DNA from: Pelagibacterales bacterium SAG-MED28
Lineage (GTDB): Bacteria > Pseudomonadota > Alphaproteobacteria > Pelagibacterales > Pelagibacteraceae
DNA length: 64,000 bases
Direction: 5' to 3'
NCBI GenBank assembly: GCA_014653835.1
Contig: JACWDY010000001.1
Coordinates: 210,961 to 274,960, forward strand
The notes under the pieces are model-generated. The model saw only the letters and a program-made list of their open reading frames with translations. It ran no database searches and was not told the origin of the DNA. Position numbers and translations under genes: made by a program. This document shows positions 26,735 to 51,614 of this stretch, in pieces (the stretch's first letter is position 1; each line of letters starts with the position of its first letter).

Positions 26735-27959
26735 ATTTTAATGCTCTAAATGTTTTCATTTTTGAAATATGTCTGGCAGGAATATAAGAGGCTATAGCTG
26801 AAACTAATAGTGAAAGAGTAAAAATTACAAATATTGAAATTAAATTAATTTCACTCGGTAACTTTTCTAAAAAATATATATCACTTGGAAATATCTCTAA
26901 GTTAAAGACTGTTGAAAGAAATATTCTTACTTTTTCAATATTCAGTGAGAATAAAACTCCTAAAATAATGCCACTTATTGAAGCAAAAAATCCTATTGTA
27001 AAACCAGTTAAAAAAAATGATTTTTTTATTGATGTATTATTTAAACCTAATGTTTTTAAGATAGCGATCTCCTTAGTCTTGTTTTTAATTAATATTGTTA
27101 GCCCTGAAATAATATTAAATGCAGCCACAATTATTATTAAAGTAAGTATTACAAACATAACATTTCTCTCAACTTTAAGAGCACTAAAAAAAGATTTATT
27201 TAAGTCAGCCCAAGTATAAATAAAATAATTTTGATTTAATTTTTCAATTTTTTTTTTATATATGTTGGCTTCCAATGGATTCTTCAAGTAAATTTCTAGG
27301 TTTTGATCTTTAGTACCTTTGTCAAAAATCGATAAAGCATCTTCAATATTCAAAAAAATAATATTTTGGTCAAATTCAACAAATCCTGTGTTAAATATTC
27401 CTGCAATTTTAAAAGTTTCTTGCTTTGGTAGACTTCCTAGGGGCGTAGCAACAAATGCAGATGACATTAAGCTAATACTATCTCCTTCTTTTAAATCAAG
27501 ATTGAAAGCAAGCTCTGTTCCTATAAATATATTATTTTTTTTAAATTGATTAATATTTCCTCTAACAATGTTATTTTCAAAAAACTCTTTTATTTTTTTT
27601 TCTTTGTTATTAACTCCTTTAAAAATAATACCCTTTGCTTTATCATTAATTATTATTATACCTTCTCCTGAATAAGTTTTACTTATAGTGATATCTTTAA
27701 AATTTTCTTTTAATTTTGTTACATAGTCATTGTCAATTATAAAACTATTTGGCTGAACTACGATATGTGGATTTAAACCTAAAATTTTTTTTGTTAAATC
27801 AGTTTTAAAACCGTTCATCACTGACATAACAATTATCAAAATTGCTACTCCAAGCATTATTCCTACGAAAGAAAAAATTGATATTATTTTTAAAAAACCC
27901 TCTTTTTTTTTGGGTTTTAGATTTCTTGACGAAATTAATCTTTCTACTTTTGTGAACAA
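26727..27959 (-). CDS. Lipoprotein-releasing system permease, LolC/LolE family
   Basis: Membrane segments with FVGIMLGVAILIIVMSVMNGFKTDLTKKILGLNPHIVV; FtsX-like C-terminus. Confidence 0.88.
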   Translation of the reverse strand: MFTKVERLISSRNLKPKKKEGFLKIISIFSFVGIMLGVAILIIVMSVMNGFKTDLTKKILGLNPHIVVQPNSFIIDNDYVTKLKENFKDITISKTYSGEGIIIINDKAKGIIFKGVNNKEKKIKEFFENNIVRGNINQFKKNNIFIGTELAFNLDLKEGDSISLMSSAFVATPLGSLPKQETFKIAGIFNTGFVEFDQNIIFLNIEDALSIFDKGTKDQNLEIYLKNPLEANIYKKKIEKLNQNYFIYTWADLNKSFFSALKVERNVMFVILTLIIIVAAFNIISGLTILIKNKTKEIAILKTLGLNNTSIKKSFFLTGFTIGFFASISGIILGVLFSLNIEKVRIFLSTVFNLEIFPSDIYFLEKLPSEINLISIFVIFTLSLLVSAIASYIPARHISKMKTFRALKYD

Positions 27960-46542: not shown

Positions 46543-46619
46543 TGGCGGGAGTGACCGGGCTCGAACCGGCGACCTCCTGCGTGACAGGCAGGCGCTCTAA
46601 CCAACTGAGCTACACCCCC
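46543..46619 (-). tRNA. tRNA-Asp (GTC)
   Basis: 77 nt cloverleaf read by eye: GGGGGTG/CACTCCC acceptor, GCTC/GAGC D-stem, CCTGC-CTGTCAC-GCAGG anticodon arm, GCCGG-TTCGAGC-CCGGT T-arm, G73 and encoded CCA. Confidence 0.95.
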
Positions 46620-47518: not shown

Positions 47519-47595
47519 GGAGTTGTAGCTCAATTGGTCAGAGCATCCGATTGTCGATCGGAAGGTTGCGAGTTCAAGTCTCGTCAACTCCGCCA
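47519..47595 (+). tRNA. tRNA-Asp (GTC), apparently phage-borne
   Basis: 77 nt cloverleaf: GGAGTTG/CAACTCC acceptor, GCTC/GAGC D-stem, TCCGA-TTGTCGA-TCGGA anticodon arm, GCGAG-TTCAAGT-CTCGT T-arm, G73 and encoded CCA. Confidence 0.85.
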
Positions 47596-47602
47596 AATTA
47601 AT

Positions 47603-47842
47603 TTAACGCCAAGCTCGACAGCTCCAATACCTAGCCTTTGTCTTAGGACCAGGAGTTGAACAACGATGTCTCGCTAAAAAAGATTTCTTTCTGCCTGGCT
47701 GATTTTTTTTAATACTCATTGTCTTACTTCCAAAAGAAACTTTCTTTACCTTGCTTCCGTCTTTTACATAGACGTAAGATTTTTTAGATCCGCCTCTTAC
47801 TGGTTTATTAAGAGTAACTTTTTTTCCACGATATGTTGCCAT
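47603..47842 (-). CDS. Small basic conserved marine-phage protein
   Basis: 79 aa ending GRKKSFLARHRCSTPGPKTKARYWSCRAWR, a C-terminal motif I recognise from marine phage genomes. Confidence 0.65.
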   Translation of the reverse strand: MATYRGKKVTLNKPVRGGSKKSYVYVKDGSKVKKVSFGSKTMSIKKNQPGRKKSFLARHRCSTPGPKTKARYWSCRAWR

Positions 47843-48042
47843 TAGTCTAAATTAGATATGCTTAATATTTTGCCGTCTTTAACTACTGCTTTAACTCGCA
47901 TACATCTAAATTCAGCATTGTTTGTAGATCTCATTGATATACGTCTGCGCTCTAAGCATTCACCTAAATTTTTCATAAGTAAGTGTTCTTTTAAAATTGG
48001 TGGATCACCTAAAAATAATAAGAGACTAATTACTATTTCCAT
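47842..48042 (-). CDS. Small hypothetical phage protein
   Basis: 66 aa, hydrophobic N-terminus, two Cys; TAATG coupling to next gene. Confidence 0.55.
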   Translation of the reverse strand: MEIVISLLLFLGDPPILKEHLLMKNLGECLERRRISMRSTNNAEFRCMRVKAVVKDGKILSISNLD

Positions 48043-48403
48043 TTAATTTTCTTGTTAGATTTTTTAAGTATTCGATATTTTCTTGAGCCTTCTCTAAAGA
48101 CTTCTCTATGTTATTAATCATAACCTGTGAGTGAATGTTTTTGTCTAGCAGCTCCTGGTGTTTAGCTATGATCTTTGCGTTATGTTCTATAAGCATATAG
48201 ATCTCTAAATTCTTAGGTGTCTGTTCAGCTTTCTTTAAAAGATCAGATGACATTAATTGATCTTGCGTCTCAAGACTGGTAATCCTATTCTGAAGATTGC
48301 TGAAGCCGAGAACTGCCGAAATAATAAAAGTTACAATAACGAGAAAGTTTGCAATAGGAATATTTAATTTTGTTTTGTCGCTTACAGAAATTTGATCTTT
48401 CAT
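48026..48403 (-). CDS. Membrane-anchored coiled-coil phage protein
   Basis: N-terminal TM (IPIANFLVIVTFIISAVLGF) followed by a long coiled coil. Confidence 0.6.
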   Translation of the reverse strand: MKDQISVSDKTKLNIPIANFLVIVTFIISAVLGFSNLQNRITSLETQDQLMSSDLLKKAEQTPKNLEIYMLIEHNAKIIAKHQELLDKNIHSQVMINNIEKSLEKAQENIEYLKNLTRKLNGNSN

Positions 48404-48534
48404 CTACCTTGTCCTCTATATTTCTTAGGTCTTTGTTTACCTGGTCCTACTTTTTTTCTTATTCTTCCTGGTCTTTTTCTTGGTTTAGTTTTGACGTAGT
48501 TTGAAATTCCAAACAGACCTTTTTTCTTTGCCAT
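48400..48534 (-). CDS. Tiny basic phage-type protein (44 aa), not in ORF track
   Basis: MAKKKGLFGISNYVKTKPRKRPGRIRKKVGPGKQRPKKYRGQGR; TAATG overlap upstream and ATGA overlap downstream. Confidence 0.7.
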   Translation of the reverse strand: MAKKKGLFGISNYVKTKPRKRPGRIRKKVGPGKQRPKKYRGQGR

Positions 48535-48881
48535 TACTTCTTAAAGATATTTGAAATTTTAATACCGAAGCTTGCTGCTACGATTGCACCAAAGATATAG
48601 AAGATCTCTGCTGGCATAGCCGATAAGACTTTAGCCCAGTTCATAAACCTTTCAGTCTCACCAATTAAAGGTAAACTTAGAATTACTAAAAACCAAACAA
48701 GTATGAGTTCATCTTTAAAACTACCACCGCTCTCTTTAATTTTAGCAATTTGAATTTCTTTTTGGCACTCGATCTCTGTATTACGCTGCACTTCTTTTTT
48801 CTTAAGATGATGCTTAAGTGCGCCAATAGAATTTTCTAATAATGTTTTTCCTAGTAAATTAAATATCATTAATATTTCCAA
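48534..48881 (-). CDS. Putative holin (3-TM-holin-like)
   Basis: GGSFKDELILVWFLVILSLPLIGE...AKVLSAMPAEIFYIFGAIVAASFGIKISNI; overlaps endolysin start. Confidence 0.6.
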   Translation of the reverse strand: MEILMIFNLLGKTLLENSIGALKHHLKKKEVQRNTEIECQKEIQIAKIKESGGSFKDELILVWFLVILSLPLIGETERFMNWAKVLSAMPAEIFYIFGAIVAASFGIKISNIFKK

Positions 48882-49270
48882 GCATTAGGTCTCATGTCGA
48901 AGCCTTCAGCTGCTGTTAGGTTGTCAATATGGATAAATGATTTTGCTACACCTAAGCCTGTAACTTTAGCTGTAAAGTAATCAATGAGTTGTTTTCTGTG
49001 TTTACTATCTTTGACTGAAATATCTAAAGCATGACCTGTTGTGTGAGGTCCGTTTGCTCCAGTGCTAGACACACTTGAGTTATGTGAGCTGCACCTGTAA
49101 GCGCTTGTAATAGATAAAGATCCTAGTTGATCTCTAGCGTCTTGCAAAAGATCTAAGATCTCTGCATTTACTTTTACAGCGGCACAACCGCATTTACATT
49201 TAAACTCATCAAGCTTAAAGTTTTTCCACCTTTCCTTCCACTCGCTTTGTTCTTTTATGTAAGTTGACAT
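48869..49270 (-). CDS. Peptidase M15-family endolysin
   Basis: FKLDEFKCKCGC, SITSAYRCSSHN, GPHTTGHALDISV and FIHIDN zinc-site motifs. Confidence 0.85.
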   Translation of the reverse strand: MSTYIKEQSEWKERWKNFKLDEFKCKCGCAAVKVNAEILDLLQDARDQLGSLSITSAYRCSSHNSSVSSTGANGPHTTGHALDISVKDSKHRKQLIDYFTAKVTGLGVAKSFIHIDNLTAAEGFDMRPNAWKY

Positions 49271-49502
49271 AATAATTTTTTACTCCTAATTTTTTTTGAA
49301 TTTCTGATGAGTATCTTTTGCGGTGACGTTTATCGTCATCACATTTGACATCGTATAGTTCCACCTCACCTGTCTTAATATTTATACGGACTATATCTAT
49401 TGGTCCTTGACCTTGTATATTTTCAAATAGAAGATGATCGTCATCCAACAGATCTATTGCAGCTGTTAGATGAGCAACAATCCCACGATTGTAATATTTC
49501 AC
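49215..49502 (-). CDS. Putative small PD-(D/E)xK-type nuclease
   Basis: 95 aa; GPIDIVRINIKTGEVELYDVKC resembles the D...(D/E)xK signature. Confidence 0.5.
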   Translation of the reverse strand: MKYYNRGIVAHLTAAIDLLDDDHLLFENIQGQGPIDIVRINIKTGEVELYDVKCDDDKRHRKRYSSEIQKKLGVKNYYVNLHKRTKRVEGKVEKL

Positions 49503-49693
49503 TAAAGAATTTTATTTAATAATAAAAATAGTTCACCTAGTACGGCTAAACCTACAGCACCGAGTACATATAAAATTCGATCAATGTCTTTTTTTATATG
49601 TGCTAAATGATTGTTTTCTAACGTATCAAGTTTTTCGTTTATGATCGCTACTTCTTTATCTAGCTTTTGGACAAGTTGATCTGTTTCTTGCAT
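49502..49693 (-). CDS. XhlA-like coiled coil plus TM protein
   Basis: 63 aa; N-terminal coiled coil and C-terminal TM ILYVLGAVGLAVLGELFLLL. Confidence 0.5.
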   Translation of the reverse strand: MQETDQLVQKLDKEVAIINEKLDTLENNHLAHIKKDIDRILYVLGAVGLAVLGELFLLLNKIL

Positions 49694-49695
49694 GG

Positions 49696-49761
49696 TTATT
49701 TTTCCAATTTAGAAATTAAATCTTTCCAAAACTTTTTTATTTTTGTAATTATTTTTTTCAT
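49696..49761 (-). CDS. Candidate 21-aa cationic amphipathic peptide in lysis region, not in ORF track
   Basis: ATG overlaps oxygenase stop (TAATG); TAA then 2 nt then next ATG. Peptide MKKIITKIKKFWKDLISKLEK. Confidence 0.55.
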   Translation of the reverse strand: MKKIITKIKKFWKDLISKLEK

Positions 49762-50390
49762 TATTTAAAAGGTGGTCCTCCAAACCACATAACCAATGAC
49801 TTACGATTTCCTTTTGTAACAGGTGTAACTCTGTGTCTTACAAAACTTGCAAAGAAGATTGCATGACCTCTTTTCATCTTTGGTCTTTTTGCATCATCTA
49901 TCATTTCTAAATCGCCACCTTCAAAATCTTTTTCATCAGATAATAAAAGTGTCATTGATATTTTTCTTACAGGCGGCTGTAACCTCATATCTGTGTCATT
50001 ATCAGTATGCCATTCATAGAAAGCTCCTGTTGGATATTCAGTATATTGTGCTTGTTCTGTTATTTGAATGCCATCAAAACCAAAATGATTACAGTTTATA
50101 TTTCTAACTAATGTATCAATTTTTTTGTACATAAGTATAGTATCAGGTCTATTAAACGGCAGCCATGAAATAGTAGTTATTCTTTTTTTACTATCATTAA
50201 CTCCAGTATCTTTTATTTTTGTTGGATCTAAATTTTTTTCAGTTTGTGTAGCTGTTCCAATTTTAGCAGCAGCTTGATCTTCACTTTGACCAATTCTAAT
50301 AATATGATCGCATTGTTCAGGTGTAAAGATAGCTTCGTTAGTTGCTACAATATATGATTTCCATCTAGGTTCTAAAATCATTATTGCCAA
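49761..50390 (-). CDS. 2OG-Fe(II) oxygenase (prolyl-4-hydroxylase-like)
   Basis: YPTGAFYEWHTDNDTD (HxD), FEGGDLEM, KRGHAIFFASFVRHRVTPVTKGNRKSLVMWFGGP (distal H, R). Confidence 0.88.
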   Translation of the reverse strand: MAIMILEPRWKSYIVATNEAIFTPEQCDHIIRIGQSEDQAAAKIGTATQTEKNLDPTKIKDTGVNDSKKRITTISWLPFNRPDTILMYKKIDTLVRNINCNHFGFDGIQITEQAQYTEYPTGAFYEWHTDNDTDMRLQPPVRKISMTLLLSDEKDFEGGDLEMIDDAKRPKMKRGHAIFFASFVRHRVTPVTKGNRKSLVMWFGGPPFK

Positions 50391-50959
50391 ACTTCTTTCA
50401 TAGCTTCGTCTTTACCTTGACCAAGATATTTTCTTCCGTCTAATGCAAATGATTTATAATTACCATTAGCTCTAATATAATGTAAAAAAACTTGCATACA
50501 TTTTTCGCCATTGTAAGGATCTCGCCAATGAGAATAGTTACAACCTTCATAAACAATAGCATCACCTGGCTTTGTTAAATATGAAGTTGGTTTAGCATTA
50601 GGATTAACTTTTGTTGTTCCTTCTTTTAATTTATGAAACCAAATAGACCAATCTTTATCTGCAAAGATATTTAAACTGATAGATACTTCACATGACGGTC
50701 TATCATTATGTTTAACTAGCTCACCACCTTTATGATACATTCTTGAGTATGTGTAAGTTGGTGTAAGTTTCTCGCCTACAAATTTTTCTACTAAAGATTT
50801 TTTTGTGCTTAAAAATGTTTCACTTAAAAAATCAGAATATACAGCAACAGAGTTTGGCGATTGAGTACATGGCTTTAAACCAGGCTCTCTGATCTTCCAA
50901 TAATCCTGTGCTAATTTTAATTCTTCACTATTGAGAAAGTTTTGGATTGCTTTTATCAT
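50381..50959 (-). CDS. Second 2OG-Fe(II) oxygenase-like protein
   Basis: GGELVKHNDRPSCEVSISLNI (HxD), KPGDAIVYEGCNYSHWRDPYNGEKCMQVFLHY (distal H). Confidence 0.7.
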   Translation of the reverse strand: MIKAIQNFLNSEELKLAQDYWKIREPGLKPCTQSPNSVAVYSDFLSETFLSTKKSLVEKFVGEKLTPTYTYSRMYHKGGELVKHNDRPSCEVSISLNIFADKDWSIWFHKLKEGTTKVNPNAKPTSYLTKPGDAIVYEGCNYSHWRDPYNGEKCMQVFLHYIRANGNYKSFALDGRKYLGQGKDEAMKEVWQ

Positions 50960-51614
50960 TGGTTGTACCTTTACCGTTTGTGTTGATTTTAAGCGTTCCT
51001 TCTTTTTCTAATCTTTGCGCTGTCATAATTTGAGCAGCTATATTTTTAGCTCCATCAGCATCATTAGCTTTGTCAAAAAATTGAAATGTTTTCATTAATC
51101 TTTTTGGTAAGCTTTCTTGCTGATGCGTATTAACATTCTGTTTATCAAAATCAGGATCTTGTTTTACAAGCTCATCTTTAAGCTCTGACCATAATCTTAA
51201 CTCTCTCATTCTATCTTTAGCTGTAAGTTCCATACCAGCTTTATCAAAAGTTTTTTGTTCTAGGTCTATTTGTAAACTTTCTTTTTCTAGTTCGTCTTTT
51301 TCTTCAGCTATTTTTTTGTGTAGTTTTTTAATCTCAACTTCATTTCTTCTGTAGTCAAAAGATAAAAAAACCATTTGTTCAAAAAATACGTTTTGCTCTC
51401 TAACAGCTTGCCAGTATTTAGCAGCTGGTGTTGGATGTTTAAGATCATTTAAAACAGATATTCTCATTTCTGTTTCAGTTCTAAACATTTGTTTTTTAAC
51501 CCATGTGTCTTGCAATTCTGCTTTCATGGCTTTGAAGTCTTTAACCTCATCTTCACTTAAAATATTTAATAAGTGGTTATCCATTGGCATCAATGGATTT
51601 ATTTGTTTTGGCAT
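50928..51614 (-). CDS. Hypothetical phage protein, charged/coiled-coil
   Basis: 228 aa helical, K/E/Q-rich, in phage operon. Confidence 0.6.
   Translation of the reverse strand: MPKQINPLMPMDNHLLNILSEDEVKDFKAMKAELQDTWVKKQMFRTETEMRISVLNDLKHPTPAAKYWQAVREQNVFFEQMVFLSFDYRRNEVEIKKLHKKIAEEKDELEKESLQIDLEQKTFDKAGMELTAKDRMRELRLWSELKDELVKQDPDFDKQNVNTHQQESLPKRLMKTFQFFDKANDADGAKNIAAQIMTAQRLEKEGTLKINTNGKGTTNDKSNPKLSQ

Follow-up and report, generated by a model that had tools for sequence, protein, structure and literature searches.

A 21-residue cationic amphipathic peptide, encoded by a micro-ORF in the late operon of a SAR11 prophage, is arranged far beyond chance expectation and is absent from all relatives found with the neighboring genes. 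It is best explained, tentatively and at less than even confidence, as the product of a real coupled micro-gene, a membrane-binding helix with an accessory late function that would assist envelope breakdown. Related prophages carry the same lysis genes and no such peptide; thus, it is at most an optional helper of lysis. SAR11 bacteria and the phages that infect them count among the most abundant marine organisms, and gene callers pass over ORFs as short as this one. Here, the window is the whole 64,000-nt stretch analyzed (Pelagibacterales bacterium SAG-MED28, contig JACWDY010000001.1, positions 210,961-274,960).

The Micro-ORF and Its Junctions

Translation of the minus strand from 49761 to 49696 gives MKKIITKIKKFWKDLISKLEK, which includes eight Lys, one Asp and one Glu (net charge +6) and has neither a membrane segment nor a lipobox. 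The micro-ORF fills the operon gap on both sides: its ATG has one base in common with the TAA of the oxygenase gene (TAATG), and the next ATG (49693) is 2 nt beyond its stop. The lysis block follows directly on the same strand (Table 1). The location, reading frame, residue counts, hydrophobic positions and operon coupling given in the original prediction were all right. Several genes of the prophage begin on or adjacent to the preceding stop; thus, the TAATG junction is a local habit. There is no good ribosome-binding site at the usual distance before the micro-ORF.

Two other readings of this segment were rejected. Frameshift fusion between the oxygenase and the peptide is ruled out by a TAA two codons upstream in the frame of the peptide (the open frame is 22 residues). 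An RNA element instead of a peptide was also rejected; there was no RNA fold signal (z -0.07), and the Rfam search returned tRNAs as its only matches, with terminator-like matches at the chance level.

Table 1. Features around the micro-ORF and loci of the MID micro-proteins.
Feature	Position	Strand	Remarks
228-aa protein, upstream part of cargo cassette	50928-51614	-	51% identical relative upstream of oxygenases in G096; phrog_1409
Second oxygenase-type cargo gene	50381-50959	-	PHROG name 'ferrochelatase'; phrog_2954, E 1.6e-50
2OG-Fe(II) oxygenase, directly upstream of micro-ORF	49761-50381	-	Pfam PF13640, E 1.9e-15; phrog_61, E 1.6e-36
Micro-ORF, 21 residues, cationic amphipathic	49696-49761	-	MKKIITKIKKFWKDLISKLEK, ATG...TAA
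XhlA-like membrane protein, 63 aa, first gene of conserved lysis block	49502-49693	-	70-77% identical in related prophages; membrane window 2.32
95-aa protein between XhlA-like and endolysin genes	49215-49502		Conserved in related prophages
M15 peptidase endolysin	48869-49270	-	Pfam PF08291, phrog_894; 62% identical in HTVC028P
Holin candidate, two membrane segments	48534-48869	-	phrog_2524; membrane windows 1.9 and 1.8
Very basic protein, 44 aa, net +18	48400-48534	-	Recurrent pelagiphage family; HTVC028P relative matches phrog_17967
i-spanin-like protein, 125 aa	48026-48403	-	phrog_20984; 40 phage records; membrane window 2.36
66-aa protein overlapping i-spanin-like gene	47842-48042	-	Short hydrophobic start, two Cys, no lipobox; phrog_24646
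MID	L078:10221-10319	-	
MID	L080:11001-11099	-	
MID	L084:8415-8513	+	
MID	L110:15868-15996	+	
MID	L061:2382-2504		
MID	L063:2352-2486		
MID	L064:2377-2523		
MID	L065:2346-2486		
MID	L114:585-704		
MID	L117:583-723		
MID	L118:567-704		

Amphipathicity against Chance

The Fauchere-Pliska hydrophobic moment of the 21-mer is 0.77 (100 degrees). This value is reached by shuffles of its own residues with p = 1.5e-4, by one of 21,947 random ATG mini-ORFs of 18-26 aa in a simulation and by none of 2,491 in a smaller one, all for a peptide that was selected in the first place for its amphipathic look. Charge and moment together are matched by none of the 18,485 21-mers from the larger ORFs of the window. 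The peptide ranks first in amphipathicity among 735 mini-ORFs in the window, and the expected count of such peptides is ~0.005, given 101 ATG mini-ORFs of 18-26 aa there. A charge of +6 or more is seen in 5.5% of random mini-ORFs. Charge alone is therefore unremarkable in AT-rich DNA; the arrangement of residues is remarkable. The exceptional cationic amphipathic character in the original prediction thus lies beyond the nulls and, with that selection as a caveat, the 21-mer is very likely more than chance.

Other measures are neutral. The open length alone is weak or neutral evidence, as 22% of random frames are open over 20 codons. The codon-usage log-ratio of the micro-ORF (+2.8) falls within the coding and the non-coding spread alike.

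The Junction in Related Loci

The tblastn search with the 21-mer, a very short query, against 50,697 phage records gave no match. No homologue turned up among phages, in 197 genomes of the family or in 19 records of pelagiphages. Weak matches were observed in SAR11 genomes (E 0.002 for the best, which is in its own genome, and 0.05-1.7 for the others). They were rejected as homologues; the inspected ones are Lys-rich helices within ordinary enzymes or out-of-frame reads.

Six other loci (L003/L024, L004/L025, L122, L123, L124 and L125) contain the downstream XhlA-like gene, with an identity of 70-77%. In all six, its upstream neighbor is a different gene, mostly tail-fibre-like and -1 to 4 nt away, and the peptide is absent between the two. 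HTVC028P has a different small coiled-coil/membrane protein at the corresponding place and does not have the micro-ORF peptide. On the oxygenase side, a contig of another genome (G096) encodes relatives of the 228-aa protein (51% identity) and of the second oxygenase (56%), the latter followed, with overlapping ends, by another oxygenase-like gene. This nearest oxygenase cassette includes no such peptide. In Marine virus AG-345-E15, the gene next to the oxygenase starts 2 nt downstream, with no peptide between them.

These comparisons point to the junction as a site at which the genes upstream are exchanged. The peptide would have arrived with, or after, the oxygenase cargo. The micro-ORF lies at the downstream edge of a cargo cassette that varies, and it is not among the conserved lysis genes. 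Such exchange, together with the absence of the peptide from relatives, argues strongly against an essential role in lysis. Membership in the lysis system, as proposed in the original prediction, is thus not borne out: the ORF that it proposed to look for in related phages is missing from the six XhlA loci, HTVC028P and G096. Two of the findings that it had named as contrary were largely observed: each relative found with the XhlA-like gene is without the ORF, and the prophage encodes a conserved i-spanin-like protein, but no canonical o-spanin was recognized.

Prophage Context, Lysis Block and Spanins

The prophage is HTVC028P-like, with 62% identity in the endolysin and 68% in the i-spanin-like protein. 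The proposed SAR11-phage context therefore holds, with HTVC028P as the closest isolate. The end of the window (64000) is the end of the contig; thus, the prophage is cut, and the remainder, including any integrase, is outside the window. The window also has two tRNA-Asp (GTC) genes, clearly different in sequence and on opposite strands, at 47519-47595(+) and 46543-46619(-). One of them adjoins the host nuo operon, at the border of the prophage, and the other is inside the phage end.

Downstream of the micro-ORF, the block is ordered as XhlA-like protein, 95-aa protein, M15 endolysin, holin candidate, 44-aa basic protein, i-spanin-like protein and 66-aa protein. The XhlA-like protein has a coiled-coil-like N-terminus and a membrane segment at its C-terminal end. 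By sequence only, the D...(E)xDVK motif of the 95-aa protein suggests a small PD-(D/E)XK nuclease-like fold. Very basic, Lys/Arg/Pro-rich proteins of 42-49 aa recur in the lysis region across several pelagiphage groups (also at L005:6781-6918). Many copies end in K-Y-R-G-Q-G-R or similar, and phrog_17967 is of unknown function.

The i-spanin-like protein is composed of an N-terminal membrane segment (2.36) and a long polar helical remainder, whose putative coiled coil was judged from the sequence and the annotation of relatives ('fibrinogen-like coiled coil'). The protein has matches in 40 phage records, and 36 of these are named as Pelagibacter phages. Most phages with this gene have a 65-75-aa two-Cys partner that overlaps or abuts it. 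The lipobox scan of the prophage minus strand, in the part within the window, found no lipobox protein. An i-spanin-like protein is thus present, but no canonical o-spanin was found in this part; the product of 47842-48042 does not have the lipobox of an o-spanin lipoprotein. The earlier statement that no clear i-/o-spanin pair was recognized is thus correct for the o-spanin, in the part of the prophage within the window; a conserved i-spanin-like protein is present. The overlapping pair at 47842-48403 may represent a new type of spanin pair. The search of the library yielded no paper on how pelagiphages get through the outer membrane.

Micro-Proteins in Other Pelagiphages

Of the 8,217 mini-ORFs in ~0.84 Mb of DNA from pelagiphages and prophages, 45 close an operon gap at either end. 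Cationic amphipathic peptides are over-represented in this set (odds ratio 33), with p = 0.008 after the 21-mer and one duplicate are left out. The set contains, in addition to the 21-mer, a 36-mer of HTVC115P and members of the MID family, both described below.

About a dozen pelagiphages encode a micro-protein of 32-48 aa, here named MID, in which a tail rich in Lys comes after an amphipathic helix. The carriers are HTVC021P, 022P, 024P, 034P, 035P, 105P, 111P, 168P, 200P and 203P, Skadi-4 and Jormungand. MID is located between the holin region and the i-spanin-like gene, just upstream of the latter. It overlaps the i-spanin-like start in most members, while in HTVC111P it ends 83 nt before that gene; in HTVC168P it overlaps another annotated ORF. 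HTVC021P gp54, HTVC024P gp33 and Skadi-4_24 are annotated members, and MID is unannotated in at least five (HTVC034P, 035P, 111P, 203P and Jormungand). Three members tested had no PHROG match. The MID family is a better conserved candidate for a membrane-active lysis peptide than the 21-mer. Homology between the two was rejected, as their similarity is no better than that of pattern-preserving shuffles (p 0.52).

HTVC115P contains an unannotated 36-aa ORF, MKKKIKTIKKVIKGLKKASNSHKKQAQTLSKVIKGK (net +14), at L074:7066-7176(-), corresponding to HTVC115P 26966-27076. It exactly closes the space between gp43 and gp44, where stop and start share one base (-1/+1 fit). Recurrent 'MANKIW...' mini-ORFs were rejected, as they overlap a longer ORF in another frame.

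Unannotated cationic amphipathic micro-ORFs in the late operon are thus seen here and in HTVC034P, HTVC035P, HTVC111P, HTVC115P, HTVC203P and Jormungand. If their peptides are membrane-active, pelagiphage lysis would depend in part on overlooked peptides. An extension of this idea is that SAR11 phages open the outer membrane with fast-evolving, largely unannotated cationic amphipathic micro-proteins (the 21-mer, the MID family and the HTVC115P 36-mer) plus an i-spanin-like protein without a lipoprotein partner. Such a mixed spanin/disruptin lysis system is improbable.

Possible Roles of the 21-mer

In the preferred explanation, the micro-ORF would be a real micro-gene with translational coupling, part of the late operon of the HTVC028P-like prophage. 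It would sit in a variable segment between the tail genes and the lysis block, as an accessory and not a core gene. Its product, a 21-residue cationic amphipathic helix, would bind membranes late, and this binding may speed or sharpen envelope breakdown after holin and endolysin action, as a helper beside the i-spanin-like protein and not as its replacement. Moment and charge beyond every null, the gap-filling geometry, the stop-start habit, the position before the lysis block and the MID micro-proteins inside that block elsewhere are counted in its favor. The six XhlA-like loci without the peptide, the lack of a homologue, the poor ribosome-binding site and the undecided codon usage are counted against it.

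A non-lytic micro-protein is a serious rival, though somewhat unlikely. The peptide may bind the inner membrane face or a partner, such as the XhlA-like coiled coil or the oxygenase, or have a cargo function with the oxygenase cassette. It is at the edge of that cassette and is absent wherever the lysis block adjoins other genes, which fits cargo better than lysis. However, the G096 cassette has no such peptide, and strong positive charge with a regular face is what membrane binding requires. A second serious rival, though an unlikely one, is a non-functional ORF, a leftover or spacer that separates two blocks of genes and is open by accident. Translation through it would then do no more than couple the XhlA-like gene to the oxygenase. 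The frequency of open random frames, the undecided codon usage, the lack of homologues in all sets searched and the look-alike helices inside ordinary SAR11 enzymes are consistent with such a leftover, but composition accounts for the charge and not for the moment, and the two are combined in no 21-mer of the larger ORFs.

That the peptide is a true disruptin, the phage's own outer-membrane disruptor replacing spanins, is very improbable. A short amphipathic cationic helix has the character reported for the phiKT disruptin in PMC12819732, and no lipobox o-spanin is seen in the window part of the prophage. On the other hand, no relative found with this lysis block has the peptide, and the i-spanin-like protein and its small partner are present and conserved.

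Comparison with Known Systems

The phiKT disruptin (Holt et al. 2022) is described in PMC12819732 as a short amphipathic cationic helix. The 21-mer matches this description in its net charge and moment, and both are encoded in a phage late operon near lysis genes. It differs in having only 21 residues, in the presence of an i-spanin-like protein and in its location: it is at the border of the lysis block instead of within it, and it is not kept in relatives. Compared with two-component spanins of the Rz/Rz1 type, the 125-aa protein has an i-spanin-like topology and its gene overlaps that of a small partner, but the partner has no lipobox, and the 21-mer lacks both a membrane segment and a lipobox. 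The MID micro-proteins resemble the 21-mer in being unusually small, amphipathic and net positive and, for the most part, in filling a gap of the late operon next to lysis genes. They differ from it in their greater length, the MID start, the Lys-rich tail and their place between the holin region and the i-spanin-like gene.
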